From: Komagataeibacter xylinus NBRC 15237 | Lineage (GTDB): Bacteria; Pseudomonadota; Alphaproteobacteria; Acetobacterales; Acetobacteraceae | Assembly: GCF_001571345.1 (NCBI RefSeq) | Contig: NZ_BCTP01000018.1 | Coordinates: forward strand, 1 to 63,226 | Reading direction: 5' to 3' | Length of the DNA stretch: 63,226 nucleotides | In this document: positions 20,797 to 46,614 of the stretch, in pieces | How the letters are laid out: every line of letters starts with the position of its first letter | How positions within the stretch are numbered: position 1 is the stretch's first letter | Made by a program: the position numbers and the translations under genes | Notes under the pieces: model-generated | What the model saw: the letters and a program-made list of their open reading frames with translations, nothing else | Told to the model about the DNA's origin: nothing | Databases searched by the model: none

Positions 20797-20884
20797 ACAC
20801 CGCTCTCCCGCAGGCCACTATGCCCGGGTGTCGGGGGCGTGTGAAGGTCAAGCCCGCTTACGTATTCCATTGCATGATGCCCGC

Positions 20885-23368: not shown

Positions 23369-23492
23369 TGCCGGTGTCCTTATTCTTTATCCCGCCCGGC
23401 AGGCCAGGATCACGACATGGAATGATACTTGAGAGAAACATCTCTCATTACGGTTATAGGATAATATCGGTTTAAAATATGTGTCAACGCAT

Positions 23493-23503
23493 ATTGTTTA
23501 CAA
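23493..23503. promoter_or_regulatory. ATTGTTTACAA box, copy 1
   Basis: An 11-bp string also present at 24355-24365, with TTGT and ACAA half-sites. It lies in the 144-bp gap between the racemase homologue and the TonB receptor, in the receptor's promoter region. It is a likely target of the GntR protein encoded at 24444. Confidence 0.45.
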
Positions 23504-23512
23504 AAATGGATT

Positions 23513-25821: not shown

Positions 25822-26222
25822 CCAGGCACGACGCCCCCGCAGATGCCATACCACAGGGCACGCTGGCATTGCGCACCCTTAGCATGCCGGCAGACCTCAA
25901 TGGCGCGGGCACGATCTTTGGCGGCTGGCTCATGGGCTGCCTTGACCAGGCCGCGGGGCTTGCCGCCGCAACGCGTTCCGGTGGCAATGTCGCGACGGTT
26001 GCCGTCAAGGAGCTGCTGTTCCTCCATCCACTCCATGCGCATCAGGATGTCAGGATTTACGCCGACCTGCTGAAAACAGGACGCACCTCGATGCATTTCC
26101 GCCTCGAGGTCTGGGCTGGTGATCTGGGTGCGACGCCGCAGGTTCTGGCTGCCCATGCCACCTTTGTCATGGTGGCGCTTGATGCGGAGGGCAGGCCGCG
26201 CCCTCTGGCCATAACGGCCTGA
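25818..26222 (+). CDS. YciA-like acyl-CoA thioesterase (hotdog fold)
   Basis: 134 residues. The opening LNGAGTIFGGWLMGCLDQAAGLAAA is the YciA/BACH-type hotdog motif with the conserved Asp on the central helix. VATVAVKELLFLHPLHAHQDV and the VLAAHATFVMVALD strands complete the fold. It should hydrolyse an acyl-CoA to acid and CoA. Coupling to a MarR gene and the CoA-ester pathway nearby suggest relief of CoA trapped as a dead-end aromatic or alicyclic thioester. Confidence 0.82.
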   Translation: MTRHDAPADAIPQGTLALRTLSMPADLNGAGTIFGGWLMGCLDQAAGLAAATRSGGNVATVAVKELLFLHPLHAHQDVRIYADLLKTGRTSMHFRLEVWAGDLGATPQVLAAHATFVMVALDAEGRPRPLAITA

Positions 26223-26236
26223 GGGCGGCTGGCATG

Positions 26237-26710
26237 TCATTCAAGGCCGAGTTTGTTCAGGTTATCGATGATCTGCCGCAATGTAAGGACGAATTGCTGA
26301 AGCTGTTCCTGGCCCAGCCCGGCCATGGCGCGTGCGGTCTGGCGCGAAACCACGGGAGTAAGCCGGTCCAGCAGGGCGCGGCCTGCGGGAGTCAGGGCCA
26401 CAACGGTCACGCGATTGTCTTCGTGTAAAAGCGTTGTGGTTACAAGGTGCATCTGGGCCATGCGTTCAACCAGGCGGCTGACCGTATTGCGTTTTATCAA
26501 CGCCTGCTGCGCCAGCCATGAAATGCTGGCCTCTTCGCGCTCGCGCAGTACTGTCAGCAGGCGATAGATGTTTTTACTGACCCCGTTCTTGACAAGAACA
26601 GCCTCGACATCTTCGTGATATTGAAAGTCCGCATGCGCAATCAGGTAAAAAGGCGAGTTGAACAGATTGAAATCATGCGCGGCGGGATCGAGTATGACAT
26701 GTTTGCTCAC
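26237..26710 (-). CDS. MarR-family transcriptional regulator
   Basis: 157 residues, convergent with the thioesterase gene (14 bp apart). Winged helix: ISWLAQQALIKRNTVSRLVERMAQMHLVTTTLLHEDNRVTVVALTPAGRALLDRL. Phe/Tyr/His-rich N-terminal text (FNLFNSPFYLIAHADFQYHEDVEAVL) could line an aromatic pocket. It stands just upstream of the 26794 aminotransferase gene's 3' end and has its own promoter space. MarR regulators are the usual controllers of auxin and other aromatic catabolic loci, which fits the neighbourhood. Confidence 0.85.
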   Translation of the reverse strand: MSKHVILDPAAHDFNLFNSPFYLIAHADFQYHEDVEAVLVKNGVSKNIYRLLTVLREREEASISWLAQQALIKRNTVSRLVERMAQMHLVTTTLLHEDNRVTVVALTPAGRALLDRLTPVVSRQTARAMAGLGQEQLQQFVLTLRQIIDNLNKLGLE

Positions 26711-26793
26711 GGTTTGCCCTGTGTTCGGTTCATGAAGCCCGGTCGAGCATATCGGTTAAACGGCATGGCGTCACGCTGACGCCACGCATTGCA

Positions 26794-27978
26794 TCAGGGC
26801 TGGAGGGTGTTGAAAAAATGCTGCATGCGCGTGAGCGCGACTTCAAGGCGTTCCGCGCTTTCCGCCCCAAAGCAGATGCGCAGGTGCCCTTCTCCGGCCG
26901 CGCCATAAAAGCTGCCTGCCTCAACCACCACGCCTTCGCGTTCAAGCAGGGCATCGGCAAGGGCCTGGGCGGTCTGCCCGGTGCCTGAAATGTCGGGGAA
27001 CGCGTATATGGCCCCCTGGGGCAGGGCGCATGTTACGCCGGGGCACTGGTTGAGCACCGCGACAACCCTGTCGCGGCGGCGCCTGTCTTCCGCGAGCATG
27101 GAGCGCAGTGGCCCCTCATCGCCCGTTACCGCCGCAAGGCCACCATACTGGATGAAAGTGTTCACATGGGTCACTTCATTGGCCGTGACGGTCATCATGC
27201 CCGCGATGAGGTCCGCTGGTGCGCAGGCATAACCGAGGCGCCATCCATCCATTGCATACGCCTTGGTGAAGGCGGACAGGGTGATCGTGCGCCCGGCCAT
27301 GCCGGGAAGGGAGGCAATGCTGATATGCTGCGCATCATCAAAGATGATGTGCTCGTAGACTTCATCGGAAATGACCAGCAGGTCATGGCGGATCGCCAGC
27401 ATGGAAAGGGCGGAGAGTTCCGCATGGCTGTAGACCCGCCCGGTCGGGTTGCAGGGATTGACCACAATGATCGCCCTGGTGCGCGGCGTAATGTGGGGTT
27501 CGATCAGCGTTGGGTTGAGGGCATAGCCCGCAGCGCGATCAAGCGGCGCGCGCACCACCACGCCGCCCGCGAGTTCGATCTTGCCGATATGCTGGGGGTA
27601 GAAAGGCTCGAGCAGGATGACTTCGTCGCCCGGATTGATGGTTGCGAACAGCGCCGCGAAGGAAGCCTGCGTGAGGCCGTTCGTGATCAGGATCTGCTCG
27701 GGCGTGGTCGGGATGTTGTTTTGCGTGCGCAGTTTGTCGGCCAGTGCCGTGCGCAGTTCGGCATTGCCGCGCAGGTCACTGTAATGGACATGCCCCGCCC
27801 GTAGTGCCGCCACCACGGCTTCCTTGATGTGGGTGGGGGTGTCATGCACCGGCTGGCCCAGTTCCAGATGGATCAGGTCACGATCGCCCCCGCATGCAAG
27901 GGCTTTGGCAAACATGCCATAGTTTTTGGGAGAGGATTCGGTGATGCGTCTGGCCAGTCGGCTCATGATCGGTTCCAT
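26794..27978 (-). CDS. class I/II PLP aminotransferase
   Basis: 394 residues, fold type I. FELGQP-like HLELGQPVHDTP, HYSDLRGNAELRTALADKL, VVNPCNPTGRVYS, ISDEVYEHIIFDD and the PLP lysine in SAFTKAYAMDGWRLGYAC are all present, followed by the substrate-carboxylate Arg in HLRICFG. Family members use aspartate, aromatic amino acids, alanine or aminoadipate. It is the last gene of a minus-strand operon with the FAD oxidase and the DUF3830-like gene. It could serve as the missing aminoadipate aminotransferase of the amaAB-hglS route or act on a tryptophan-related amine. The specificity is open. Confidence 0.85.
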   Translation of the reverse strand: MEPIMSRLARRITESSPKNYGMFAKALACGGDRDLIHLELGQPVHDTPTHIKEAVVAALRAGHVHYSDLRGNAELRTALADKLRTQNNIPTTPEQILITNGLTQASFAALFATINPGDEVILLEPFYPQHIGKIELAGGVVVRAPLDRAAGYALNPTLIEPHITPRTRAIIVVNPCNPTGRVYSHAELSALSMLAIRHDLLVISDEVYEHIIFDDAQHISIASLPGMAGRTITLSAFTKAYAMDGWRLGYACAPADLIAGMMTVTANEVTHVNTFIQYGGLAAVTGDEGPLRSMLAEDRRRRDRVVAVLNQCPGVTCALPQGAIYAFPDISGTGQTAQALADALLEREGVVVEAGSFYGAAGEGHLRICFGAESAERLEVALTRMQHFFNTLQP

Positions 27979-28015
27979 CAGGTCGGGGGAGGGGAAGGCA
28001 GGGACAGTGGCGCGC

Positions 28016-29323
28016 TCAGGCGCTTTTTGCCCCGGTCATCTGTTTCAGCCGGGCCGTCAGCCGGGCGGCCCCCATTATGAGGCGGGGAATGTGCCGCGCC
28101 AGTGCAAAGCCGGGAATGGCGGGCGGCCGCCCGGTGGGCAGGCGGGGCCGGTCGCGCCCCCCGCTCAGGATCCACGCCGCCGCGTCATGCCCGGCAAGCG
28201 TGTTGATGGCGAGCCCCCGTCCGTTACAGGCCTGGATGGCCAGCAGGCCTTCATCAAGGATGGGCATGCGCGCAATACAGTCGCTGCGCAGCCAGGCCGT
28301 GCCGGTCCAGGCAGAGGCCAGCGGCGTGTATTCCCAGCCCGGAATGGCCTTTTCCAGGCGCGTATTGATCGTGCGCTCGATCTGTGACCAGTCAAGGTGA
28401 TCGGGGGCGGGGGCTGCGGTAATCAGGTGGCCATGCGTATCAAACCTTATGGAAAAAACATCCGTGGCAAGGTCGGTCAGGGCATGGCGCTGTGGCAGGA
28501 TGTGCTGCTGCAGGTGTGCCGCGAGGGGGGCGGTTGCGACCTCCAGCACGGGCAGCGGCAGCACGGAATGGCGCAGGGCGCGGTGCAGCATCGGGTTGCC
28601 GCCATTCGCGGCCAGGATGACATTGCGGGCCCGGGCCCGGGCCATGCCGCTGGCAAAACTTACCTGCCACCGGAGCGCGCCTTGCCCCTCCTGGCGCGTG
28701 ACGGCGGTGACCTGTGTGCCGTTATGGATGCGGCCGCCATGCTTGATGATGCGTCGCGCCAGTTCATCGGCATAGGCGGCGGGGTCAAGCGCGCCGCCGC
28801 TGGCATCGAGAACGGCCCCCGCATAGCCGCTGCACCCTGAAAGAAATGCGGTTTGCGCTTTATCGAGCAGCGAAACATCCTGCCGCCACGGGCGCCAGCT
28901 TTCCACCACGGCGCGTTCACGCTGCCCGGTGCCAAAAAAGGGCGCAAGGAAGCCATTGGGCATGAGGTCACAGCGCAGTTCCTCATCCTGGATCAGCGCG
29001 CGCGTTTCGCGGGCGGAGGCGGCAATGGCGCCGATCAGGCGCTGGCCTTCTTCGCGGCCAAGGCGTTTGATCAGGCTGTCGGGCGTGTTGCGCACCGGCT
29101 GGCCTGCAATGATGCCGGCGCTTGCGCGGGTGGCCAGCCCCATGGCTGTCCCGGCATTGAGCACGATGACATCCTGCCCGCTGCGGGCCAGATGGAGCGC
29201 GGTGGAAAGCCCGGCGATACCGCCGCCGACCACCACGGTCTCGGCCTCATGCATGCCGGCTGCCGGGGGCAGGTCGGGCAGGGGCCTGCCCTGCCACAGG
29301 GGCCTTTGCGCTGAAGGCTGCAT
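28016..29323 (-). CDS. FAD-dependent amine/amino acid oxidase (DAO family, PuuB-like)
   Basis: 435 residues. N-terminal Rossmann motif ETVVVGGGIAGLSTALHLARSG, then ATRASAGIIAGQPVRNTP, and a C-terminal ILDEGLLAIQACNGRGLAINTLAGHDAAAW typical of glutamylputrescine-oxidase-like DAO enzymes. Such enzymes oxidise secondary or primary amines, releasing H2O2 or passing electrons on. It overlaps the upstream DUF3830-like gene by 1 bp (TGATG) and lies 37 bp from the aminotransferase. The substrate is unknown. It is distantly similar in type to AmaA at 11 kb. Confidence 0.83.
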   Translation of the reverse strand: MQPSAQRPLWQGRPLPDLPPAAGMHEAETVVVGGGIAGLSTALHLARSGQDVIVLNAGTAMGLATRASAGIIAGQPVRNTPDSLIKRLGREEGQRLIGAIAASARETRALIQDEELRCDLMPNGFLAPFFGTGQRERAVVESWRPWRQDVSLLDKAQTAFLSGCSGYAGAVLDASGGALDPAAYADELARRIIKHGGRIHNGTQVTAVTRQEGQGALRWQVSFASGMARARARNVILAANGGNPMLHRALRHSVLPLPVLEVATAPLAAHLQQHILPQRHALTDLATDVFSIRFDTHGHLITAAPAPDHLDWSQIERTINTRLEKAIPGWEYTPLASAWTGTAWLRSDCIARMPILDEGLLAIQACNGRGLAINTLAGHDAAAWILSGGRDRPRLPTGRPPAIPGFALARHIPRLIMGAARLTARLKQMTGAKSA

Positions 29324-29823
29324 CAGGGCTGGCTCATTGCTTCAAATGTAAGGCTGCAACTGCCATTTTTGCGAATCGTGGCGCATCCGGCCTGAAGGGC
29401 GGCCAGATCTTCGGGCACGACATGGGCGCAGACCGATCCCTGTATCCAGCCCATCGGCATGAGCATGCGGCTGCCCGCGCCATAAAAAATGCCGATATCA
29501 AAGAAATCGGCCGGGGGCATGCCTTTCCATGTGCCTTTCGGGGCGAAGACGGTGGCGATCTCTCCCATTGCGGGGAAGCTGGTGGCATTTTCCAGGGGCA
29601 GGTCGCGTGCCGTTGCACCGGGCAGGGCATCTCCTACAACAAGGCAGGAAATTTCCGGCCCGGTCCACATGGCATGAATGGCGTTATGCCTGTCTCCCTG
29701 TCGGGCGATCTGCCACAGCATGTCCGCGTGGCGCGGGGCCTCATGGTCAAGCAGCGCAAAGCGCGCGGCCAGCCCGGACTGTTCTTCACGGATCATGATG
29801 AAACGGGTCATGCAGATATTCAT
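29323..29823 (-). CDS. DUF3830-like protein (cyclophilin-like fold)
   Basis: 166 residues from the ATG at 29823, preceded by GAAGGG. The pattern FALLDHEAPRHADMLWQIA, HAMWTGPEISCLV, then a Gly/Pro-rich centre with GDLA-like strands (FFDIGIFYGAGSRMLMPMGWIQGSVCAHV), matches small DUF3830 proteins that accompany hydantoin, amine or pyrimidine catabolic genes. No catalytic residues are established for that family. As first gene of the operon it is divergent from the 2-oxoacid oxidoreductase across 366 bp. Confidence 0.55.
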   Translation of the reverse strand: MNICMTRFIMIREEQSGLAARFALLDHEAPRHADMLWQIARQGDRHNAIHAMWTGPEISCLVVGDALPGATARDLPLENATSFPAMGEIATVFAPKGTWKGMPPADFFDIGIFYGAGSRMLMPMGWIQGSVCAHVVPEDLAALQAGCATIRKNGSCSLTFEAMSQP

Positions 29824-30189
29824 CCCTTCAATCTGGCCTGGATAAATTATAACCATAATCACGTGATGTCGATCCCATATGAATCATTTCATGATGGAAT
29901 GGCCGCAAGGTAGCCCACGTTGGATCATTTTTTCCTTTTTTATAAATAATTAGGCGCATGATGCGGAGCGGAAAAAATATTCTTCCGTTTTTACTCTTGC
30001 GGACGGGCGGATAACATGTCGTTAATTGCATGCGAAGTAGACGGGGAAGCGGGCAGGGCAGTCGCCTTGGCCATGCCCGGTTCATGTATCATTAAGAACA
30101 AGAAACGATTTGCGCGGCAGATGCGCCCATGGTGGCGCGCGACAGGCTGACAGCCGTCATGTGGCGGATGAAAAACGGGAGCACGATGC
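29824..30189. promoter_or_regulatory. divergent promoter region
   Basis: 366 bp between the leftward oxidase operon and the rightward oxidoreductase operon, AT-rich at 29835-29990. A small dyad ATCAT-TTC-ATGAT lies at 29883-29895, and CACGTG at 29861-29866. It could coordinate both operons. No gene was seen, and I cannot place -10/-35 boxes confidently. Confidence 0.4.
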
Positions 30190-32352
30190 ATGGCGGAGCG
30201 ATCATTTGCGCATGAGGTGAAGCAACTGCGCATTGGTGCGGGGGAAGTCTTCCGCGGGGAGGGTATCCTTGCCATTACCAAGGCGCTGTTGCAGTCGGGC
30301 GTGGGGTATGTGGCAGGGTATCAGGGCGCGCCCATTTCGCACCTGATGGATGTACTGGCCGATGCCCAGGACCTGCTTGCCGAACTCGACGTGCATTTCG
30401 AATCAAGTGCAAGCGAGGCGAGCGCGGCGGCCACGCTTGCGGCTTCGGTCATGTACCCCATCCGCGGCGCGGTGACATGGAAATCAACCGCGGGCACCAA
30501 TGTCGCCTCCGATGCGCTTGCCAATCTGTCATCTGGTGGTGTCAAGGGCGGCGCGCTCATCATCATCGGTGAGGATTATGGCGAAGGTTCCTCCATCATG
30601 CAGGAGCGTTCGCATGCCTTTGCCATGAAGTCGCAGATGTGGCTTCTTGATCCGCGCCCCTCACTGCCCTGTATCGTGGACATGGTTGAAAAGGGCTTCC
30701 AGCTTTCCGAGGCATCGAACACGCCCGTGATGTTGCAGGTCCGGATCAGGAGCTGCCACATGCATGGCAGTTTCGTGGCCCGGGAAAACCGCCGTCCCGC
30801 CATGACACTGAACGAGGCGAGCCTTGCGCCCCGGCGCGATCCCGCGCGTATTGTCCTGCCACCCGCCGCCTACCGGCAGGAGCACGAAAAGCTTGAGCAG
30901 CGCTGGCCTGCCGCCGTGGCCTATGTCAAGGCCGCCGGACTCAATGAATTCCTCGGGGCGACGGAGGGCGATGTCGGGCTGATCGTGCTGGGGGGGCTGT
31001 ACAATAATACCCTGCGGGCCTTGATGCGCCTTGGTCTGGCCGACCTTTATGGGGAGAGCGTCCTGCCCCTGTATGTCATGAATGTCGCCTATCCGGTAAT
31101 CGATGATGAGGTGCTGGAGTTCTGCCGTGACAAGAAAAGCGTGCTGGTGATCGAGGAAGGTCAGCCGGATTATATTGAACAGGCGATTGGCAGGCTGCTG
31201 CACAGGCACGTGCCCGGATGCATGCTGCATGGCAAGGACATGCTGCCCAAAGGCGGGGAATACACGGTCGAGACCCTGACCGAAGGGTTGCGTGGCCTGA
31301 TCGCATGCGCGGCGCCCGACCTGATCGACAATGCCGCGCGGGCCCCCAACGAGATGGCGATTACGGACGAGCCGAAGATAGCGGCCCTGGCCAGAACCGT
31401 GCCAGCGCGCCCCGCCGGGTTTTGCACCGGCTGCCCGGAGCGGCCCATTTTTGCTGCCATGAAACTCGTGGAGGGGGAACTCGGGCCGCATCACATCGCA
31501 TCGGATATCGGCTGCCACCTCTTTTCCATCCTGCCCCCGTTCAATCTTGGCGCGACCACGATGGGCTATGGGCTGGCACCTGCTTCGGCCTCGGCCTTCA
31601 ACGGCTTGGGCAGCGGCAAGCCCCGCAAGCGAACGATTGCGGTCATGGGCGATGGCGGGTTCTGGCATAACGGGCTGACAAGCGGCATCGGCAATGCCGT
31701 GTTCAACAAAAGTGATGATGTCATCGTTATCGTAGACAATTATTACTCTGCCGCCACGGGTGGGCAGGATATTCCCTCATCACGTTCCTCTCCCCCCACG
31801 CGCTCGACCCATCATCCCATCTCCCGCGCCATTGAAGGGGTTGGCGTGGAATGGGTGCGTGAGGTGGACCATACCTATGATGTCACGCGCATGCGCGACG
31901 TGCTGCGTGAGGCGCTGACCACCCGCAAGGCGGGGCCGAAGGTGATTGTCGCCTCATCGGAATGCATGCTCAACCGGCAGCGGCGCGAGAAACCCCTGCG
32001 GCGCAAGGCGCTCGGCGCGGGCCAGCGTGTGGTCAACCAGCGCTTCGGGGTGGATGAGGAGATCTGCACGGGAGATCATGAATGCATCCGCCTTTCCGGC
32101 TGCCCGTCGCTTTCGGTCAGGCCATCAGCCGATCCGCTGAAGGAAGACCCGGTGGCCAGCATCGACCAGAGTTGCGTGGCCTGCGGCAATTGCGGCGAGG
32201 TGGCGGATGCAGCCGTGCTGTGCCCTTCCTTCTACCGCGCCGATACGGTGGTCAATGCGGGCTGGCGGGAGCGGTGGCGTCAACGCCTGCGCACCCGCGC
32301 CGTGGGCGTGCTGCAACGCTGGCGCGAAAGTCGGCGGCCGGTCCTGGGCTGA
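30190..32352 (+). CDS. 2-oxoacid:ferredoxin oxidoreductase, IorA-like alpha subunit
   Basis: 720 residues. It is annotated by type as indolepyruvate ferredoxin oxidoreductase, which decarboxylates a 2-oxo acid onto CoA with reduction of an iron-sulfur carrier. The N-terminal half is the pyruvate-oxidoreductase-like domain (YVAGYQGAPISHLMDVL, FESSASEASAAATLAAS). The thiamine diphosphate site is GDGGFWHNGLTSGIGNAVF ending in VDNYYSAATG (about residues 487-515). Two C-terminal cysteine groups follow: CTGDHECIRLSGCPS and CVACGNCGEVADAAVLCPS. The subunit gene partner follows 59 bp later. Next to an isatin-hydrolase-like gene and an anthraniloyl-CoA monooxygenase homologue, isatinate (2-aminophenylglyoxylate) is a more fitting substrate than indolepyruvate. 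Confidence 0.85.
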   Translation: MAERSFAHEVKQLRIGAGEVFRGEGILAITKALLQSGVGYVAGYQGAPISHLMDVLADAQDLLAELDVHFESSASEASAAATLAASVMYPIRGAVTWKSTAGTNVASDALANLSSGGVKGGALIIIGEDYGEGSSIMQERSHAFAMKSQMWLLDPRPSLPCIVDMVEKGFQLSEASNTPVMLQVRIRSCHMHGSFVARENRRPAMTLNEASLAPRRDPARIVLPPAAYRQEHEKLEQRWPAAVAYVKAAGLNEFLGATEGDVGLIVLGGLYNNTLRALMRLGLADLYGESVLPLYVMNVAYPVIDDEVLEFCRDKKSVLVIEEGQPDYIEQAIGRLLHRHVPGCMLHGKDMLPKGGEYTVETLTEGLRGLIACAAPDLIDNAARAPNEMAITDEPKIAALARTVPARPAGFCTGCPERPIFAAMKLVEGELGPHHIASDIGCHLFSILPPFNLGATTMGYGLAPASASAFNGLGSGKPRKRTIAVMGDGGFWHNGLTSGIGNAVFNKSDDVIVIVDNYYSAATGGQDIPSSRSSPPTRSTHHPISRAIEGVGVEWVREVDHTYDVTRMRDVLREALTTRKAGPKVIVASSECMLNRQRREKPLRRKALGAGQRVVNQRFGVDEEICTGDHECIRLSGCPSLSVRPSADPLKEDPVASIDQSCVACGNCGEVADAAVLCPSFYRADTVVNAGWRERWRQRLRTRAVGVLQRWRESRRPVLG

Positions 32353-32411
32353 AGGTCTGAAGGCAGTCCTTTCGCTATATTTTTCATGTCTTTCCGGGCC
32401 AGAAGAAACTG

Positions 32412-33938
32412 ATGAAACCTGAAAAGAAACCAATTTCAATAGCCGTCTGCGCCATGGGGGGGCAGGGTGGCGGGGTGCTGGTCAGTTGGATCGTGACCCT
32501 GGCGGAACAGTGTGGCTGGGTCGTGCAGTCCACCTCGGTGCCCGGCGTGGCGCAAAGAACCGGCGCCACCATCTATTACATCGAGATGGTGCCGCCCGAT
32601 CCTGCCGGTCGCACCCCTATCCTGGCACTCATGCCCACGCCGGGCGAGGTTGATATCGTCATCGGCGCGGAACTGATGGAAGGTGGCCGCGCCATGCTGC
32701 GTGGGCTGGTTACGCCCGAGCGCACCACGCTGATTGTTTCAACCCACCGCAGCTATGCGGTGGAGGAGCGGATCAGCCCCGGTGACGGGCGGATTGATCC
32801 GGCCGCCGTGCATGAGGCGGCGGCCATCGCCGCCCGCTCTGTCATTGCCTTTGACATGGAGGCCGTGGCGCAGCAGGCCAAGAGTGTCATTTCAGCCGTC
32901 ATGTTTGGGGCGTTGGCCGCAAGTGCTGCCCTGCCATTTCCCCTTTCCGCCTTTCATGATGCCATCCGGCGCGGCGGCATCGGCGTAAAGGCCAGCATCA
33001 GGGCGTTTGATCTGGGTGCCGCCCGCGCCACGCAACCCGTGGCGCAACAGCCGGTCCCTGCTTCGCCCTCTCCTGTGCCGGGCCTGCAACAGCTTACGGG
33101 TCATACGGGTTTTGATGCGCTCCTGAGCCGTGCGGCGGCCCTGCCTGGCGCGGCGCACGGCATGGTGGATGCGGGGCTGCGTCGGGTCGCGGATTTTCAG
33201 GACCTGGCGTATGCGGAGGTCTATCTCGCGCTGGTGGAGGAATTTGCCGCTACGGGGCACGAGGCGCTGAGCATCGAGGCGGCGCGCCATATCGCCAACG
33301 CCATGGCTTATGATGACATCATCAAGGTGGCGGACCTCAAGATACGGCGCACCCGTTTCGCACGTATCGCGGGCGAGATGGGGGCGCGGGGCGGCCAGCC
33401 GCTTGCCATTACCGAATTCATGCACCCGCGTGCGGAGGAAGTGCAGGCCATCCTGCCTTATGGCCTCGGCCTGTTTTTGGAAAAAACCGGGCTGGGCAGG
33501 CGCCTGCTGGCACCTTTTGTCAAAACCGGCTGGCGGGTGCGCACGGACCGCCTGCGCTGGTTCATGCTCCTGTTCCTCACGGCTGAACTCTACCGTCTTC
33601 GCCCTGGTTCGCTGCGCCACAGGCGCGAGATGCGCCATCGGGATGAATGGCTTGCCCTCGTGCGCGCGGCATGGCGGCTGGATGCGAATTTTGCCGTCGA
33701 GGTATTACGCTGCCGACGGCTGGTAAAGGGCTATAGCGATACGCATGCCCGCGGCCTGTCGAAATTCGATCAGGTGATGAAAGCCGTGCGCAAACTGCTC
33801 GGGCACGGGGTCAGTGGTGCAAAAGCAGCGACATGGACCCGTTTCCTCAGGGATGCGGCGCTGGAGGATGCGCAGGGCAAGGCATTGGAACAGGCCCTGG
33901 CCCGCTTTGAACGCGGTGCCATGGTGGAAGGGAACTGA
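32412..33938 (+). CDS. 2-oxoacid:ferredoxin oxidoreductase, IorB-like beta subunit
   Basis: 508 residues. The N-terminal 190 residues are the gamma-type domain (VCAMGGQGGGVLVSWIVTLAE, TSVPGVAQRTGATIYYIEMV, AELMEGGRAMLRGLV), which binds CoA or pairs with the alpha subunit. The remainder is the long DUF6537-like extension found in aerobic IorB homologues (HGMVDAGLRRVADFQDLAYAEVYL, RIAGEMGARGGQPLAITEFMHPRAEEV). Works only with the preceding gene product. It is followed after one base by the cyclase-family gene, so all three form an operon. Confidence 0.85.
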   Translation: MKPEKKPISIAVCAMGGQGGGVLVSWIVTLAEQCGWVVQSTSVPGVAQRTGATIYYIEMVPPDPAGRTPILALMPTPGEVDIVIGAELMEGGRAMLRGLVTPERTTLIVSTHRSYAVEERISPGDGRIDPAAVHEAAAIAARSVIAFDMEAVAQQAKSVISAVMFGALAASAALPFPLSAFHDAIRRGGIGVKASIRAFDLGAARATQPVAQQPVPASPSPVPGLQQLTGHTGFDALLSRAAALPGAAHGMVDAGLRRVADFQDLAYAEVYLALVEEFAATGHEALSIEAARHIANAMAYDDIIKVADLKIRRTRFARIAGEMGARGGQPLAITEFMHPRAEEVQAILPYGLGLFLEKTGLGRRLLAPFVKTGWRVRTDRLRWFMLLFLTAELYRLRPGSLRHRREMRHRDEWLALVRAAWRLDANFAVEVLRCRRLVKGYSDTHARGLSKFDQVMKAVRKLLGHGVSGAKAATWTRFLRDAALEDAQGKALEQALARFERGAMVEGN

Positions 33939-33939
33939 G

Positions 33940-34713
33940 ATGTCACTGTTAACGGAACTGGTACGGGGCCTGCTGGACGGCGAGGTTGCGGTCGTGGATC
34001 TGACCCATACGCTGAGTGAGGATTTTCCCACCCTGGTGCTGCCCGAGCCTTTTGGTCAGACGGCGGCGTTTTCGAGCGAAGTCATCTCGCGCTATGATGA
34101 AAAAGGCGTGGCCTGGTACTGGCGCAACTTTACCGTAGGCGAACATACCGGCACGCATTTTGATGCGCCAGCCCACTGGATCAGCGGCAGGGACGTGCCT
34201 GACAACACGGTTGATACCATGCCCCCGCGCGATTTTATTGCGCCAGTCTGCGTTATTGACTGCGTTGCTCCTGCCGCGGCTGATCCCGATTTTCTTCTCA
34301 CGCCGCACCATATCGAACAGTGGGAAAGCGCGCATGGCTGCATTCCGCCGCGCAGTTGGGTCTTCATGCGTACCGACTGGGGGCTGCGCAGCCGCGATGA
34401 TTACACGAACCGGCGCGCGGATGGGGCCCATACGCCCGGTCCTTCGGCCGAGGCCGTGCGTTTCCTGATCGAGGAGCGGGATATTTTTGGCTTTGGTACC
34501 GAAACCATCGGCACGGATTGCGGCCAGGCCCATCTGCTCGAGCCGGCCTATCCTGCCCATACGCTGCTGCATGGCGCGGGCCGGTATGGCCTGCAATGCC
34601 TGACGGGCCTCAATCAGTTGCCTGCGACCGGTGCGCTGGTGATCGCCGCTCCGCTCAAGCTCATGGACGGTTCGGGCAGTCCGCTGCGCGTGCTCGCCCT
34701 CGTGCCGCGCTAG
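33940..34713 (+). CDS. cyclase-family metal amidohydrolase (isatin hydrolase / kynurenine formamidase-like)
   Basis: 257 residues from the ATG at 33940, with GGAAGGGAAC upstream; a longer frame from 33814 only reads back through iorB. The family metal site HTGTHFDAPAHW is intact, and a further ligand region lies at DCGQAHLLEPAYPAHTLLHG. Cyclase-family enzymes include kynurenine formamidase and isatin hydrolase, which open an amide. Between a 2-oxoacid oxidoreductase and an anthraniloyl-CoA monooxygenase homologue, opening isatin to isatinate fits best. Formylkynurenine hydrolysis is the main alternative, but no tryptophan dioxygenase or kynureninase is in the window. Confidence 0.82.
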   Translation: MSLLTELVRGLLDGEVAVVDLTHTLSEDFPTLVLPEPFGQTAAFSSEVISRYDEKGVAWYWRNFTVGEHTGTHFDAPAHWISGRDVPDNTVDTMPPRDFIAPVCVIDCVAPAAADPDFLLTPHHIEQWESAHGCIPPRSWVFMRTDWGLRSRDDYTNRRADGAHTPGPSAEAVRFLIEERDIFGFGTETIGTDCGQAHLLEPAYPAHTLLHGAGRYGLQCLTGLNQLPATGALVIAAPLKLMDGSGSPLRVLALVPR

Positions 34714-34759
34714 AGCAGATCCCGTTTGAATGGACACATTCGAACGGGTGAAGATGCTC
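34713..34759. repeat. nested hairpin / cruciform after the cyclase gene
   Basis: Inner stem CCCGTTTGAATG (34721-34732) with CATTCGAACGGG (34737-34748), 12 pairs including one G-T, loop GACA. Outer stem GAGCA (34713-34717) with TGCTC (34755-34759). It directly follows the cyclase stop and can act as a terminator or mRNA 3'-end element. It has the look of a dispersed intergenic repeat. Confidence 0.55.
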
Positions 34760-34895
34760 GATAAACAATGAGTTAGAAAAATTATACTGAGCCAGAGTTC
34801 AGTGGAATTGCCCTGGGCGCGCGGGCATCCATCATACCAGCCCCGACCTGCGCAGGCCCGCCGGGGGGCACAACATCAAATAAAGGAGTGTCCGG

Positions 34896-37205
34896 GTGGA
34901 CATTGTTTCAATAGGCGGTGGGCCAGCGGGACTGTACGCGGCCATTCTGCTCAAGCGTGACTTGCCCGATGCGCGCGTGCGCGTGTTCGAGCAGAACGCA
35001 CCAGCCGACACATTCGGCTTTGGCGTTGTGTTCAGTGACCAGACGCTGGATGTGTTCGCGGGAGCCGACCAGATCTCGTACGATATGATTCGCGCTGCGT
35101 TTTCCTATTGGGATGATCTGGATATCGCGGTGCGCAATCATGTCTTTCGCGTGCCGGGCAATGGTTTTTGTGGCTGTTCACGCCGCACGCTGTTGCAGGT
35201 CCTCTATCACCGGGCGGAAGCGCTGGGGGTTGAACTCCATTTCGGGGCGGCGGTCATGCCTGCGCAGTTTCCCGATGCCGACCTGATCCTTGCTGCCGAT
35301 GGCATCAACAGCCGCGTGCGGCAGCACGATGCCGCGCATTTTGCCCCTGCGATCGACCTGCGTTCAAACCGTTTTGTCTGGCTTGGCAGCACGCGTGCGC
35401 TCGATGCGTTCACCTTCTTTTTCCGCGAATGCGAAGAGGGGCTGTTTATTGCGCATTGCTACCAGTATGAGACCGAACGCAGTACCTGGGTCATTGAAAT
35501 CGACGAAGAGACATTTGCCCGCTGTGGTTTCGAGGCCATGGCAGAGGCGGATTACGTGGCTTATCTGGAGCGTGTCTTCAGCGAGGAACTGGCCGGGCAT
35601 CCGCTTATTGCCAATCGCTCGATATGGCGCAGGTTCCCTGCCATCCGCTGCGCGAAGTGGCATAAGGACAATGTGGTCCTGCTTGGTGATGCCAAGTCGA
35701 CCGCGCATTTTTCCATCGGGTCAGGCACCAAGCTGGCCATGGAGGATGCGATTGCCCTGCATGGTGCCATTATGTCCACCGACAGCATATCCGCGGCTCT
35801 CGCGCTGTACGAAACGCAACGGCGCGGCGAAGTGGAGCGCCTGCAGCACGCGGCGGAAGTTTCGCTGACATGGTTCGAGCACCTCCACCGCTACTGGCCG
35901 ATGAGTGAAACCCGCTTTGCGTTCTCGCTCATGACACGCTCGAAAGCCATCACATGGGATGACCTGACCCTGCGCGCGCCCGCTTTCATCGCGCAGGTGC
36001 AGCAGGATTTCGAGCGCGACTGCGCCCGCAGGGGCGATGCGGTGCGGCCCGGAGTAGTGCCTGCCTTCCAGCCTTTCCGGTTGCGTGACATGACACTGGC
36101 AAACCGGGTGGTCGTCTCGCCCATGTCCACCTACCGAGCACGGGAGGGTGTGCCGTCCGAGTGGCATCTGGTGCATTATGGCGCCATGGCCCGAGGGGGG
36201 GCTGGCCTGATCTATACCGAGATGACCGATGTCAGTGACGATGGCCGCATTACGCCCGGCTGTGCGGGCCTGTATACGGATGAGCAGGTGCATGCCTGGC
36301 GCCGCATCGTTGATTTCGTGCATGCGGAAGGGGAAAGCCGCGTGTGCCTGCAACTTGGTCACGCAGGGCGCAAGGGCGCCACGCGCGTGATGTGGGAAGG
36401 CATGGACGAACCCCTTGCGGAAGGGGGGTGGGAACTCCTCGCGGCCTCGGCGCTGCCCTATCACCCTCACAGCACGGTGCCCCGCGCCATGACGCGTGAT
36501 GATATGGACCGGGTGAAAGCGGATTTCGTGGCGGCGACCCGGCGGGCGGTCGGGTGCGGGTTCGACATGATCGAACTGCATTGCGCCCACGGCTACCTGC
36601 TGGCCAGTTTTCTTTCGCCACTGACCAACACACGCATGGATGACTATGGCGGCAATGTTGAAAACCGCCTGCGCTACCCGCTTGAAGTCTTCCGGGCCAT
36701 GCGGGCCGTCTGGCCTGCTGATCGTCCCATGGCGGTGCGTCTTTCCGCGACCGACTGGCAGGAAGGTGGCATCACGATGGAGGAGGTCGTGTATATCGCC
36801 CGCGCCTTTGGCCAGGCGGGGTGCGATCTGATCGATGTTTCAACCGGGCAGACAACACCATCTGCCAGACCTGTATTCGGCCGGATGTTCCAGGTACCGT
36901 TTGCCGAGCAGATCCGCGCCGAGACCGGGCTTGCGGTCATGTGTGTGGGCAATATTTCAAGCGTGGACCAGGCCAATACCATTCTGGCCGCAGGCCGTGC
37001 CGATCTGGTGGCTTTCGGGCGCCCCATGCTGGTTGATCCCGCGCTGATCCTGCGGGCAGCAGCGCGCTACGGCGCTCCCATGCCGGCGTTGCCGCCTGGT
37101 GCCCGGCCGGGACTGAATGCAATGACCCGCACCGAAAACCGCCGGTTTGCCGATGAGCAGGCCCTGCGTGTCAAGGCCCGCCCCCGCAGGCATGCCATGG
37201 AGTGA
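34896..37205 (+). CDS. bifunctional FAD monooxygenase / Old Yellow Enzyme reductase, 2-aminobenzoyl-CoA monooxygenase/reductase type
   Basis: 769 residues. It starts with GTG at 34896, with AAAGGAG 8 bp before. Residues 1-380 form a single-component flavin monooxygenase (VSIGGGPAGLYAAILLKRD; LLGDAKSTAHFSIGSGTKLAMEDAI). Residues from about 387 form an NADH:flavin oxidoreductase barrel (PFRLRDMTLANRVVVSPMSTY, LQLGHAGRKGAT, ELHCAHGYLLASFLSPLTN, VGNISSVDQANTIL, VAFGRPMLVDP). This fusion is known from the aerobic anthraniloyl-CoA route, where it hydroxylates and then reduces the ring of 2-aminobenzoyl-CoA. Salicylyl-CoA 5-hydroxylases share only the first half closely. The neighbours, which could make anthraniloyl-CoA, support the first reading. 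Confidence 0.85.
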   Translation: MDIVSIGGGPAGLYAAILLKRDLPDARVRVFEQNAPADTFGFGVVFSDQTLDVFAGADQISYDMIRAAFSYWDDLDIAVRNHVFRVPGNGFCGCSRRTLLQVLYHRAEALGVELHFGAAVMPAQFPDADLILAADGINSRVRQHDAAHFAPAIDLRSNRFVWLGSTRALDAFTFFFRECEEGLFIAHCYQYETERSTWVIEIDEETFARCGFEAMAEADYVAYLERVFSEELAGHPLIANRSIWRRFPAIRCAKWHKDNVVLLGDAKSTAHFSIGSGTKLAMEDAIALHGAIMSTDSISAALALYETQRRGEVERLQHAAEVSLTWFEHLHRYWPMSETRFAFSLMTRSKAITWDDLTLRAPAFIAQVQQDFERDCARRGDAVRPGVVPAFQPFRLRDMTLANRVVVSPMSTYRAREGVPSEWHLVHYGAMARGGAGLIYTEMTDVSDDGRITPGCAGLYTDEQVHAWRRIVDFVHAEGESRVCLQLGHAGRKGATRVMWEGMDEPLAEGGWELLAASALPYHPHSTVPRAMTRDDMDRVKADFVAATRRAVGCGFDMIELHCAHGYLLASFLSPLTNTRMDDYGGNVENRLRYPLEVFRAMRAVWPADRPMAVRLSATDWQEGGITMEEVVYIARAFGQAGCDLIDVSTGQTTPSARPVFGRMFQVPFAEQIRAETGLAVMCVGNISSVDQANTILAAGRADLVAFGRPMLVDPALILRAAARYGAPMPALPPGARPGLNAMTRTENRRFADEQALRVKARPRRHAME

Positions 37206-37232
37206 ATGACACGCCCCAGGCGGGAAAAGCGG

Positions 37233-37276
37233 TTGCAACAAGCCTGTGCGCCATTATATCTTATGCATAAGATATA
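37233..37276 (+). promoter_or_regulatory. promoter region with perfect 22-bp palindrome
   Basis: A perfect dyad at 37255-37276 (half-site TATATCTTATG) lies 41 bp before the SDR start, downstream of a possible -35 (TTGCAA, 37233-37238). The same 22-bp element with two mismatches occurs at 57760-57781. It is probably the binding site of a FCD-type GntR regulator, the nearest being encoded at 39554-40273. Confidence 0.62.
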
Positions 37277-37317
37277 TGCTGGCGTGCTTCATAAGAAACA
37301 ATAAGGATAAGCTTTTG

Positions 37318-38073
37318 ATGCGTACACGGCATGTTCTGGTTAGCGGTGGATCGCGTGGCATAGGCCGCGCCGTTGCCCGGCACATGATACGGACCGGCGA
37401 GACCGTGACCGTTACGGGACGTGATGCCGCAACACTGCAGGAAGTCGTACAGGCGGGTGACGCCCATCATTACGTGGTGTGCGATGTCACGGATGATCAC
37501 GCGGTCGTAACAGCCTGTAAAAAGGCAGTCAGCCAGGCAGGTCCTGTTGATGTGCTTGTCAATAATGCGGGCGGTTCCTCAAGCGGGCGTTTTGGCACAA
37601 TGGCGGTTCGTGATTTTGTCGATGCGTTTCAACTGAATGTGCTCGGGGCGGTCCGGTTGTGCCAGTCTGTGCTGCCGGGCATGGTTGAGCGTGGGAAAGG
37701 GCGTATTGTCAACGTCGCCTCCACCGCTGCCCTGCGGGGCTATGAATATGTGGCGCCTTATGTCACGGCCAAGCATGCGCTGCTTGGATTGACGCGCTCG
37801 CTCGCGCTGGAATATGCCCGCTCGGGCATAACGGTCAACGCGGTATGCCCGGGCTTTACCGATAGTGACCTCGTCAGCGCCAGCATTGCCCGTGCCGCAG
37901 GTAAAAGCGGGCGCCCTGCTGAGGATATCCGTGCAGAATTCGCCCGCTTCAACCCGCGCGGATGCCTCAATACCACGGAGGAAGTGGCAATTGCGGTGGC
38001 TTTCCTGTGTAGTATCGGCGCGAGTGCGGTCAATGGCGTAGCGCTGCCGGTTGCGGGTGGCGAGGTGGGATAG
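37318..38073 (+). CDS. short-chain dehydrogenase/reductase
   Basis: 251 residues from the ATG at 37318 (AAGGA upstream); the longer frame would include the operator. NAD(P) motif VSGGSRGIGRAVARH, NNAGGSS, catalytic Ser in NVASTAALRG, Tyr and Lys in YVTAKHALLG, and PGFTDSDL after the sixth strand. It is related to 3-hydroxyacyl-CoA/3-oxoacyl reductases and cyclic alcohol dehydrogenases. In the proposed pathway it could oxidise or reduce the alicyclic CoA ester made by the preceding fusion enzyme. It has its own operator, so it may start a second transcription unit. Confidence 0.85.
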   Translation: MRTRHVLVSGGSRGIGRAVARHMIRTGETVTVTGRDAATLQEVVQAGDAHHYVVCDVTDDHAVVTACKKAVSQAGPVDVLVNNAGGSSSGRFGTMAVRDFVDAFQLNVLGAVRLCQSVLPGMVERGKGRIVNVASTAALRGYEYVAPYVTAKHALLGLTRSLALEYARSGITVNAVCPGFTDSDLVSASIARAAGKSGRPAEDIRAEFARFNPRGCLNTTEEVAIAVAFLCSIGASAVNGVALPVAGGEVG

Positions 38074-38152
38074 GCCCTTGATGCGCAGGACGAGGCCCCT
38101 GCCTTTATTGTACAAATAGTGTCATTGACTGAATATTAGGATGGATTCCCGT

Positions 38153-38557
38153 ATGTCAGGTTCTGTTTTCCATCAGGTCGTGCAGCCAGAAGGCTGGCCC
38201 GCGCCCCGGGGTTATGCAAATGCCATTGTGGCCACGGGCCGCCTGCTGAGCATCGGGGGGCAGATTGGCATGACCCCGGCAGGCGAGATGCAGGAAGGGT
38301 TTGTCACGCAGTGCCAGCAGGCGCTGCGCAATATCGAGGCCTTGCTCAAAGCGGCCGATGCGCTGCCCGAGCATGTCGTGCGCATGACATGGTACGTGAC
38401 CGACATCGCGACCTACACGGCTCAGCTCCGCCCGCTTGGGCAGGTCTATCGAACGGTCATGGGGCGGCATTACCCTGCAATGAGCCTTGTGCAGGTGGTC
38501 AGGCTGGTCGAACCGGCCGCGTTGGTGGAAATCGAGGCCACGGCGGTCATTCCATGA
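38153..38557 (+). CDS. Rid/YjgF-family protein lacking the catalytic Arg
   Basis: 134 residues from the ATG at 38153; the ATG at 38141 overlaps the ribosome-binding site. Rid fold text: GYANAIVATGRLLSIGGQIGMTP, CQQALRNIEALLKAADALPEHVVRMTWYVTDI, and the C-terminal VEIEATAVIP. Archetypal RidA enamine/imine deaminases have an Arg in the motif PARS; here it reads YPAMSLVQVVRL, so the Arg is Met. That places it in the Rid subfamilies that do not hydrolyse 2-aminoacrylate and that often sit in aromatic or amine degradation operons. It could hydrolyse the enamine formed from 2-aminobenzoyl-CoA ring reduction. Confidence 0.82.
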   Translation: MSGSVFHQVVQPEGWPAPRGYANAIVATGRLLSIGGQIGMTPAGEMQEGFVTQCQQALRNIEALLKAADALPEHVVRMTWYVTDIATYTAQLRPLGQVYRTVMGRHYPAMSLVQVVRLVEPAALVEIEATAVIP

Positions 38558-38653
38558 GGGCCGGGCACGGCATGGCGGCCTGAATCGTGTCCGTTTTACC
38601 GTGCCGTTTCCTGATTGCACGCGACTTTCCGGCCAGAAGTAAAGTCTTTGCCC

Positions 38654-39496
38654 ATGCTTGATACGATCCTGTTCTGGTCCCTGTGGTGCATCATGTTCTG
38701 CATAGGCAGCAGTCTTCGTCCTGCTGATTTCCTGAGTGTCATACACGGGCATCGTTCGCTGCTTATCGGTATGGTCAGCCTGATCGTGATCGTGCCGTTG
38801 CTGGATATCGGCATTGCGTGCCTCTACCATCCTCCGCCGGCCATTCTGTTCGGGCTGGTTCTTCTGGCCACGACGCCAGGGGGCGTGCTGTCCAATGTAT
38901 TGACCGATCTTGCCAAGGGCAATGTCGCGCTTTCTGTTTCCCTGAGTATCGGGGTGAGCGCGCTTTATGTGGTCATCGTGCCCTTTATCGTAACACTGGC
39001 GCAGACGATTATTTTCAGCCAGGCCATGCCCGTTTCAGTTTCTTCGCTCGGGTTGCTGGGTGATATCGTGCTGATTACCGTCCTGCCGGTTTCCTGCGGC
39101 ATGCTGGTCGGCGGGTATCTGCCTGCCTCGTGCAAGCGCCTGCTCAATCCAGTCAAACTGGCCTGCACCGCAACATTACTGGTGCTTTATGCCGTGCTTC
39201 TGTATCACCAGCGTGCGGCCCTTCAGGCAGGTATCCGGCAGATCGCGTGGGCGGTGCTGGGCATGAACTGCGTCAACCCCCTCTGGGGGTGGCTGGTCTG
39301 CCGTCTTGGAAGGGTCTCGCATCGCGATACGGTGCCCATCGTCTTTGAGCATCTGATCCGTCAGGAGGGCACCGCGATATTCATTGCCGTGGCCCTGCTG
39401 CACCGCGAGGAATCCGCACTGCCCCTGATCATGAACAGCCTGTTCAGCATCATCATCGGTTCCGGCATCATGCGCTATTTCCGCAGCCGTGGATGA
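38654..39496 (+). CDS. BASS-family (bile acid:sodium symporter-like) transporter
   Basis: 280 residues from the ATG at 38654, about nine to ten hydrophobic segments. GLVLLATTPGGVLSNVLTDLAKGNVALSVSLS is the characteristic crossover motif of the BASS superfamily, and a second discontinuous-helix region is seen at VFEHLIRQEGTAIFIAVALLH. Relatives carry organic acids such as bile acids, pantoate or pyruvate with sodium. As last gene after the SDR and Rid genes it probably imports the aromatic or carboxylic substrate of this cluster, or exports an intermediate. Confidence 0.78.
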   Translation: MLDTILFWSLWCIMFCIGSSLRPADFLSVIHGHRSLLIGMVSLIVIVPLLDIGIACLYHPPPAILFGLVLLATTPGGVLSNVLTDLAKGNVALSVSLSIGVSALYVVIVPFIVTLAQTIIFSQAMPVSVSSLGLLGDIVLITVLPVSCGMLVGGYLPASCKRLLNPVKLACTATLLVLYAVLLYHQRAALQAGIRQIAWAVLGMNCVNPLWGWLVCRLGRVSHRDTVPIVFEHLIRQEGTAIFIAVALLHREESALPLIMNSLFSIIIGSGIMRYFRSRG

Positions 39497-40331: not shown

Positions 40332-41633
40332 TTACGCGCACCATCCGCTTATTATGCCGGCCACTACATCAATGCAACGCAGGTAGTCCGCCAGGTCCAC
40401 CCATTCATCCGTTTTCCCGTTCTGCGACAGGTCGCCGCATAGCGGGCCAAGGCCAATGGTTGGAATGCCATGCTGGACATTGGGCACCCGTATATCGCTC
40501 GATGTGTGCAGCACGTTGGCAAAGGCACGCTCTCCCGTCACGTTATGGATGACGGTATTGGCAATTTCAAACAGCGGGTCATCGGTGCGCACTTCCGCCG
40601 GGCTTACGCCTGATATCCAGGCAATCCGGGGGGGATGGGCCGCGAGGAACGCATCGGCAGCAGCGGCCTGGCTGATGCAGGCTTCCACTTCAGCCTGTAC
40701 GCTTTCCAGCGTTTCGCCGGGCGGGAAGGACAGCGCGCAGCCAATCTCGCAGCTCTGGGCCACCCGATTGAAACGCTGCTGGTGGCTGGTGGCAATGGTG
40801 GAAACAAGCAGGTTGCTGGCCCGGCCGATGGCCGTGTCGAGGGCCGCGTGATGGACCCTCTCAGCCCGCTCCGCATCAAGCGCCTGCAACGCCGTGCACA
40901 CAGACATGGCCTTTTCGATCGGGTTGACCGCCAGATGCGCGAAGGCGGTATGGCCCGGTTCCGTTGTGGGGGGCTGTTCGCCATCCACCGTGATGGTGAA
41001 GAGCAGTTGCCCCCCCGCGAAACTCTTGATCTCGCGCATGCCCGCACCGGATTCAGCAGGGTGCAGGTAAAGGGCGGCATCGCTCAGGCCGCCGTTCTGC
41101 ATGACCGCGATCATGCCACGCGCATGGCGCTTGCTGGGCGTACTGGCCACGATCACGTCACCGTGGAGCGTAACCCCGCTTTTGACAATGCTGCGCACGC
41201 TTTCAACCATGGTTGCTACGCCAGCCAGGTCATCGGCTACCCCCCAGCCATAAACGCGCCCGGCCTCCACGCTGCCGGCAAAGGGATCGTGCCGCCAGCC
41301 GGTTGTATCGGTGCTGGGTTCGCTGTCGGGGTGGGCGAACATCATCAGGCTGCGGCCGCCGCCGGTCCCGGGCAGGCGGGCAATGATGGCGGTGCGCTCC
41401 TCATCGTGCAGGTTGGGGTATGCTGCGAATTCATCGCGCAGCGTGAGGTCGCGCGGCTGGTAGGTGACATGCTGCACGATACAGCCAAGGCGCTCGAGTT
41501 CCTGTGCCACATGTTGCTGCACAGCCTGTTCGCCTTCCTTGCCCAGGCGGATCAGCGCCTGCAGGAAAGCCAGCCGTTCATTGGCCTCCGGTGCAAGGGA
41601 GGGAGAAGAAGGATTTGACGTTGCTTGGATCAT
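40332..41633 (-). CDS. M20-family hydrolase homologue lacking the catalytic Glu pair
   Basis: 433 residues of the ArgE/DapE/aminoacylase fold. The first metal motif is recognisable (MMFAHPDSEP, His and Asp) and the bridging Asp is present (YGWGVADDLAGVA). The usual Glu-Glu motif reads VASTPSKRHARG, and the final His position reads QNGKTDEWV, so several ligands and the general base are missing. Its start overlaps the stop of the preceding M20 gene by 4 bp. Either it is a regulatory partner of that enzyme, a pseudo-enzyme, or an enzyme with a different chemistry. Confidence 0.75.
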   Translation of the reverse strand: MIQATSNPSSPSLAPEANERLAFLQALIRLGKEGEQAVQQHVAQELERLGCIVQHVTYQPRDLTLRDEFAAYPNLHDEERTAIIARLPGTGGGRSLMMFAHPDSEPSTDTTGWRHDPFAGSVEAGRVYGWGVADDLAGVATMVESVRSIVKSGVTLHGDVIVASTPSKRHARGMIAVMQNGGLSDAALYLHPAESGAGMREIKSFAGGQLLFTITVDGEQPPTTEPGHTAFAHLAVNPIEKAMSVCTALQALDAERAERVHHAALDTAIGRASNLLVSTIATSHQQRFNRVAQSCEIGCALSFPPGETLESVQAEVEACISQAAAADAFLAAHPPRIAWISGVSPAEVRTDDPLFEIANTVIHNVTGERAFANVLHTSSDIRVPNVQHGIPTIGLGPLCGDLSQNGKTDEWVDLADYLRCIDVVAGIISGWCA

Positions 41634-42916: not shown

Positions 42917-43012
42917 GGTCTGCTCCTGCCGGTGCCGCCTGTGCGATGACGGGCAACACGGGAAAATACATCAGGGTCATCGGGCACGCCCGAGGCCGTT
43001 ATTCGAACGTCA

Positions 43013-46608: not shown

Positions 46609-46614
46609 GGCGTG

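Follow-up and report, generated by a model that had tools for sequence, protein, structure and literature searches.

A predicted isatin catabolic operon with an IorAB-type 2-oxoacid oxidoreductase in Komagataeibacter xylinus

Gene organisation and the isatin hydrolase

The contig NZ_BCTP01000018.1 of Komagataeibacter xylinus NBRC 15237 (63,226 nucleotides, referred to here over its whole length as the window) contains a putative isatin catabolic operon of six same-direction genes, which spans 30190-38557 on the + strand with a largest intergenic gap of 182 bases. The first gene (30190-32352; Pfam/NCBIfam and alignment) encodes an iorA/iadA-like thiamine diphosphate (TPP)-dependent 2-oxoacid oxidoreductase alpha subunit with C-terminal iron-sulfur (Fe-S) type cysteines, and the second (32412-33938; Pfam/NCBIfam) an iorB/iadB-like protein with a 2-oxoacid oxidoreductase gamma domain and DUF6537. 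These are followed by a Cyclase-family gene assigned as isatin hydrolase from PDB sequence matches and motifs (33940-34713), a homologue of 2-aminobenzoyl-CoA monooxygenase/reductase (ABM) recognised by Pfam/NCBIfam and its neighbours elsewhere (34896-37205), a short-chain dehydrogenase/reductase (SDR; 37246-38073; Pfam) and a RidA family protein of the enamine/imine deaminase fold (38141-38557; Pfam/NCBIfam). The next gene on this strand encodes an SBF-family transporter (38615-39496; Pfam), which is possibly part of the system. The genes named in the original prediction were all located at these coordinates in one direction, and Pfam and NCBIfam agreed with their assignments. The start of the cyclase was placed by homology at the ATG at 33940; the mechanical open reading frame begins at 33814, inside iorB. 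The six-gene order is identical in three further Komagataeibacter genomes with 68-84% identity, and this recurrence makes the arrangement more than a matter of chance. The hydrolase of the K. diospyri MSKU 9 locus (L100) is 81% identical to that of the window. Since the hydrolase was present in just 3 of the 18 other Komagataeibacter genomes searched, the locus is an accessory trait.

Isatin arises when plant hormones and indoles are broken down. When the cyclase was compared with all PDB sequences, 5nnb, an isatin hydrolase A, came out on top (364 bits, E 4.1e-108), with 5nna at E about 4e-108, followed by two more isatin hydrolases, namely 5nmp (334 bits) and the B enzyme 4j0n (250 bits). 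The kynurenine formamidases matched at 23-26 bits (E 8e-5), about 339 bits behind. The metal motif HxG[T/A]HxDxPxH is present as HTGTHFDAPAH at residue 68 of the reading from 33943, the aromatic pocket WxW/FxW as WYW, and the GLQC/GLAS signature as GLQC; together with the Pfam Cyclase match, these bear out the earlier description of a cyclase-family hydrolase with a metal site, and the PDB matches narrow it to an isatin-hydrolase-like protein. Among the homologues in the fetched stretches (n = 111), the metal motif was found in 109, GLQC in 97, GLAS in 12 and both in 3. The pocket together with GLQC/GLAS is named as a signature of isatin hydrolase activity in an excerpt of the report on the solved enzymes from Labrenzia aggregata and Ralstonia solanacearum (PMC6117287). 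The window protein shares sequence, metal site, aromatic pocket and GLQC with the solved proteins 5nna, 5nnb, 5nmp and 4j0n, whereas its genomic setting differs and its activity is predicted here. By sequence and motif, the cyclase is a predicted isatin hydrolase.

The IorAB pair and its linkage to isatin hydrolase

The IorA/IorB-like pair of the original prediction was recovered as TPP_enzyme_C in IorA and POR plus DUF6537 in IorB (Pfam). Seven C-terminal cysteines of IorA (residues 626-678) are invariant across 8 of 8 aligned sequences, the window included, and the pair carries the TPP domain, gamma domain and Fe-S type cysteines that are features of a 2-oxoacid:ferredoxin oxidoreductase. 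IorA scored 290.9 bits against the indolepyruvate equivalog TIGR03336 (IOR_alpha), of which the cut-off is 650.9. The DUF6537 part of IorB (residues about 230-508, encoded within 32412-33938) is nearly all-helical, and a structural search with it gave no informative relative.

The linkage of these genes was followed in hydrolase loci fetched from genome contigs with up to 10 kb on each side. Among the best 80 of 586 relatives, IorA or IorB was in the stretch in 43 and ABM in 17. Well-flanked loci, with 8 kb or more to either side, numbered 64, of which 44 had auxin-type genes (thiolase or Rieske) and 20 did not. IorAB was found in 17 of those 20 loci lacking auxin genes, so that the hydrolase-IorAB pair also stands without them; in 14 of the 17, IorAB is on the hydrolase strand and only 2-49 bases away, and ABM is present too in 11 of the 17. 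The arrangement reaches the Actinomycetota, as a Tsukamurella stretch holds hydrolase, IorAB and ABM.

Two kinds of IorB could be distinguished. The IorB tree of 96 rows, midpoint-rooted for drawing and with many rows from hydrolase-anchored searches, has two well supported sides of 72 and 24 rows, and isatin hydrolase was in the fetched stretch of 62 rows on the 72-row side and of none on the other. In a class sample of 337 genomes, K. xylinus included, the hydrolase was found in 12 (E 1e-60), IorB in 51 (E 1e-60) and ABM in 61 (E 1e-150). The linked IorB kind, held by 13 genomes, occurred in 7 of the 12 hydrolase genomes and 6 of the 325 others (p 1.4e-8), or in 6 of 11 hydrolase genomes when K. 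xylinus was left out (p 2e-7), by Fisher tests that ignore shared ancestry. Similarly, ABM was present in 11/12 hydrolase genomes and 50/325 others. Thus, the first IorB kind is tied to isatin hydrolase, though not exclusively. In two stretches that hold no isatin hydrolase (L223 and L228, the latter with tryptophan 2,3-dioxygenase as well), IorAB of the second kind is separated by a few kb from kynureninase and from ABM, acyl-CoA dehydrogenase (ACAD), enoyl-CoA hydratase (ECH), SDR and RidA, and therefore the co-occurrence of IorAB and ABM partly has another cause.

The original prediction had noted that no Rieske dioxygenase is in the window. A tblastn search of the window at 1e-4 with four proteins of the iad locus (Rieske oxygenase, reductase, AMP ligase and thiolase) returned no match, and the K. 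xylinus genome has no close homologue of the Rieske auxin oxygenase (best Rieske alpha E 5.9e-9). The original prediction also proposed to look for this gene set beside Rieske auxin oxygenases, and the outcome was positive; IorAB occurs with Rieske oxygenase, thiolase, SDRs and isatin hydrolase in L041, which is from the same family, in L046 and L051, and in seven Achromobacter loci, and L041 and L051 additionally carry ABM and RidA. All seven Achromobacter loci have the order IorA-IorB-reductase-Rieske alpha-beta-AMP ligase-thiolase-SDR-isatin hydrolase-SDR. This order matches the published iadA to iadJ, and from it iadA/iadB would be IorA/IorB and iadI the isatin hydrolase, the letters being assigned by order. 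The iad locus (iadA-J; Achromobacter, Variovorax, Bradyrhizobium) thus has IorA/IorB, a hydrolase in the place of iadI and an auxin-type MarR relative in common with the window; unlike it, the window lacks these four genes (the Rieske oxygenase and reductase, the AMP ligase and the thiolase) and carries ABM, SDR and RidA inside the operon.

In excerpts of the auxin-degradation literature, iorB/iadB and “iotA”/iadA are markers of iad-like operons (PMC9613470), steps are assigned to iadC-K2 with IadI called a possible broad-specificity amidase (PMC12633357), and the endpoint is anthranilate (PMC9613470, PMC12633357). The excerpted text of PMC12633357 does not mention iadA or iadB, and no assigned role for them was found in the portions of this literature consulted; an excerpt of PMC8383072 applies the iad letters to a different cluster. 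According to part of the text of PMC12633357, strong accumulation of C8H7NO3 and C7H7NO was confined to Variovorax strains in which iadC-K2 was overexpressed on the background of the locus deletion, and this deletion, as described in part of PMC9613470, spans gene 72, which is iadA. By its formula, C8H7NO3 corresponds to isatinate, and its build-up in a strain lacking iadA fits IadAB as the isatinate-removing enzyme.

Several loci hold the hydrolase in other company. In the first halves of L104, L105 and L109 and in Caballeronia (L005:13633-20508), hydrolase-IorAB-ABM occur with cupin, FAH-type and C-N hydrolase homologues, which may form a gentisate-like route through 5-hydroxyanthranilate, maleamylpyruvate, maleamate, maleate and fumarate; L005 also holds a thioesterase and an Asp/Glu racemase. 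On Rhodobacterales plasmids (L189:7327-15543, L181:3902-12050, L233, L235), the hydrolase adjoins NAD(P)/FAD-dependent oxidoreductases, MarR, IorAB and an ABC transporter, and these loci are another Rieske-free setting for it.

Supply of the CoA ester and the proposed pathway

The aerobic 2-aminobenzoyl-CoA pathway comes from Azoarcus evansii. The ABM homologue of the window contains FAD_binding_3 and Oxidored_FMN (Pfam), a FAD monooxygenase fused to an old yellow enzyme (OYE) type reductase, the architecture that we take to define ABM. The domains of the monooxygenase/reductase-type fusion were therefore as earlier described, and its score fell just below the curated cut-off of PRK08255/NF006101 (bifunctional salicylyl-CoA 5-hydroxylase/oxidoreductase; 1053 vs 1078 bits; the Deinococcus homologue scored 1288). 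In an excerpt of PMC6221969, the aerobic pathway consists of 2-aminobenzoate-CoA ligase and ABM. The window has the same FAD and OYE fusion with SDR, RidA and MarR neighbours; unlike that pathway, it has no ligase and no ECH or ACAD, and the CoA ester would come from IorAB. The absence of an anthranilate-CoA ligase was upheld in the window (no homologue by tblastn at 1e-4) and in the K. xylinus genome, where no homologue of the Deinococcus ABM-operon ligase was found at E 1e-20, though a very divergent ligase could escape this search. The same search at E 1e-20 gave none in the sister genomes G013 and G017 and one distant match (30%) in G011. The K. xylinus genome has no kynureninase match (TIGR01814) either. 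Because close homologues of the ligase, kynureninase and Rieske auxin oxygenase are all missing genome-wide, IorAB is the only visible supply of the ABM substrate.

The Deinococcus psychrotolerans cluster (L188) has the order ABM-SDR-MarR-ECH-ACAD-CoA ligase-hydrolase-TPP enzyme-RidA with no IorAB in the stretch. It has isatin hydrolase, ABM, SDR, MarR and RidA in common with the window, but a TPP enzyme and a CoA ligase where the window has IorAB. The top curated model for this ligase is benzoate-CoA ligase (345 bits, below the cut-off of 375). From its gene content, Deinococcus is a natural control, in which the TPP enzyme and ligase would bridge hydrolase and ABM where IorAB would stand. 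A TPP enzyme adjoins or nears the hydrolase at L188:8992-11405, L192:5315-7773 and L191:4935-11650 (Deinococcus, Rhodococcus and Agrobacterium plasmids) and is a candidate isatinate decarboxylase.

The genes after ABM were also compared. In 33 ABM stretches (31 distinct, as two pairs overlap), matches within 12 kb were found for RidA in 22, SDR in 21 and the MarR of the 25285-25821 type in 26. Among three SDR references from elsewhere, the one most similar to the window SDR is linked to ABM in Azospirillum (46.5%). The ABM operons of G336 and G370 have the order ABM-SDR-MarR-ECH-ACAD-CoA ligase, with a thioesterase and a RidA in the vicinity, and ECH and ACAD are present in L002, L051, L188, L229 and L230. 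The product of ABM is an enamine ketone, which makes it a plausible RidA substrate.

Taken together, the operon is probably an isatin catabolic module leading from isatin through isatinate and 2-aminobenzoyl-CoA to dearomatisation. The hydrolase would open isatin to isatinate (2-aminophenylglyoxylate). For IorAB, we infer oxidative decarboxylation of isatinate with CoA by its TPP and Fe-S centres to give 2-aminobenzoyl-CoA, CO2 and the reduced form of a presumed electron acceptor. ABM would then monooxygenate and reduce the ring of this ester to a non-aromatic enamine-ketone CoA ester, upon which the SDR and RidA would act, RidA probably releasing the amino nitrogen. The action of IorAB on isatinate is what would be new here; no statement linking isatinate to a 2-oxoacid oxidoreductase was found in the open-licence literature searched. 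The isatin-to-anthraniloyl-CoA route of the original prediction thus stands as the best explanation. At the level of sequence, support comes from the hydrolase identity, from the protein families and domain architecture assigned to IorAB and ABM, from the conservation of their linkage and from the ligase gap, whereas close lower-pathway homologues and an exclusive hydrolase-IorAB tie were not found.

A number of observations weigh against this module. IorAB was present in 18 of the 44 well-flanked auxin-type loci and not in the stretch in the other 26. In the class sample, five of the 12 hydrolase genomes (G220, G314, G100, G222, G316) have an IorB of the unlinked kind alone, and no hydrolase is found at E 1e-60 in 6 of the 13 genomes carrying the linked kind. 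Outside this sample, G032 has a hydrolase match with an internal stop and no IorB, and G022 a hydrolase match with only a short IorB match. The Tsukamurella (L183) and Alloyangia (L181) stretches hold a ligase homologue and IorAB together. In Variovorax, the isatinate build-up could stem from overexpression alone, and cultures of the wild type contained isatinic acid as well (PMC9613470, in part). Anthranilate was fully restored in the strain lacking iadA (PMC12633357, in part), and hence anthranilate formation in that organism does not require IorAB; free anthranilate may be a side product. The K. xylinus genome has no close ECH or ACAD homologue (best E 4.5e-9 and 7.2e-5), and Komagataeibacter may therefore take only nitrogen from isatin, or detoxify it, and export the carbon; the sister genome G017 has a 37% ACAD.

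Other explanations were weighed on the same data. IorAB might be a general aryl 2-oxoacid oxidoreductase for indolepyruvate, phenylpyruvate and phenylglyoxylate that shares a regulon with the hydrolase because the two function in breaking down indole and tryptophan, with isatinate going elsewhere. The family is indeed annotated as indolepyruvate oxidoreductase, and the six hydrolase-free genomes above, the occurrence of a TRAP binding protein (L195, L198) or hydantoinases (L197) near IorB, and the other IorB kind close to kynureninase and ABM (L223, L228) agree with such a role. We nevertheless regard it as unlikely, as IorA scores far below the indolepyruvate cut-off, IorAB stands beside the hydrolase in 17/20 well-flanked loci without auxin genes, and ABM would be left with no visible substrate supply. 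It is still less probable that isatinate is decarboxylated without CoA transfer to 2-aminobenzaldehyde, with free anthranilate as the end product and ABM used otherwise. The detection of C7H7NO and anthranilate in Variovorax (PMC12633357, in part) and the TPP enzymes beside or near the hydrolase in Deinococcus, Rhodococcus and Agrobacterium speak for it, but the search of the K. xylinus genome gave no ligase by which anthranilate could be reactivated, yet ABM is kept (81% in the operon of a sister species), and the three TPP enzyme stretches have no IorAB match, as would be the case if one replaced the other. The cyclase could also be a kynurenine formamidase in an operon handling kynurenine-derived anthranilate, since the two share a superfamily and an arylformamidase model gives a 25-bit match (cut-off 223). 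With isatin hydrolases leading by about 339 bits among solved relatives, GLQC in place of the KynB motif and no kynureninase match in the genome, this is very improbable.

Coming back to IorAB as the enzyme acting on isatinate, we lean, with less assurance than for the operon itself, to the wider claim that IadAB is an isatinate:acceptor oxidoreductase (CoA-acylating), that the iad pathway ends in 2-aminobenzoyl-CoA rather than free anthranilate and that the three-enzyme core is a stand-alone isatin pathway, fed by a different, Rieske-free source of isatin, in acetic acid bacteria and sphingomonads. If so, IadA and IadB, the proteins marking one of two aerobic auxin-degradation loci in plant-associated bacteria, would have a concrete job and the drawn endpoint of the pathway would change. 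Unlike free anthranilate, which can be lost by leakage or drawn into tryptophan synthesis, the CoA ester would stay in the cell and feed ring reduction, and the ATP spent by a CoA ligase would be saved. Acetic acid bacteria and sphingomonads would then both have Rieske-free modules, which point to a further isatin source.

Divergent and surrounding genes

The - strand genes next to iorA encode a DUF3830 protein divergent from iorA (29323-29862; Pfam), a DAO-type FAD oxidoreductase (28016-29323; Pfam), a class I/II aminotransferase (26794-27978; Pfam/NCBIfam) and a MarR-like regulator (26237-26710) assigned by its match to solved auxin-locus MarRs. Beyond these, family matches on the + strand identified a 4HBT thioesterase-superfamily protein (25818-26222), present in three sister loci, and a MarR regulator of the type seen in ABM operons (25285-25821). 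The conserved block also spans both groups (26237-29862 and 25285-26222) and, minus the SBF gene, recurs in the Komagataeibacter genomes G017, G011 and G013 with identities of 62-85%; the SBF gene had no match in the three sister loci. The DUF3830 and DAO genes are linked in these loci, in sphingomonads (L103, L107, L111) and in Caballeronia (L005). In the same sphingomonads, 35-51% homologues of DAO, DUF3830 and SBF (SBF 35-37%) lie beside hydrolase-IorAB, and DUF885 proteins are also found; aminotransferase homologues (55-62%) occur in the hydrolase stretches L112, L174 and L054. The divergent genes shared with sphingomonads and Caballeronia suggest a Rieske-free isatin supply.

The MarR-like protein (26237-26710) had no Pfam match at 1e-5. 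It is 54-56% identical to MarR in sphingomonad hydrolase stretches, and its top solved matches were 7kua (E 7e-18), 7l19 and 7kym, listed in an excerpt of PMC9613470 as auxin-locus MarRs, the first being IacR of Pseudomonas putida. This nearness to auxin-locus MarRs hints at an indolic ligand. In Azospirillum thermophilum (L187:3699-9762), the hydrolase has an indole/styrene monooxygenase, a flavin reductase, an SDR and an FAD oxidoreductase as neighbours, possibly an indole-to-isatinate cluster judging from the gene families.

An IS66 transposase at 26-934, at the left edge of the window, is a possible border of an acquired region. The operon is surrounded (17852-24286 and 40332-57425) by amine, amino acid and hydantoin-type genes, which include M20 hydrolases, a cytosine/purine permease, an Asp/Glu racemase, two DHDPS-family proteins, an amidohydrolase, a large Fer2/FAD/DAO fusion and, by eye, ABC transporters.

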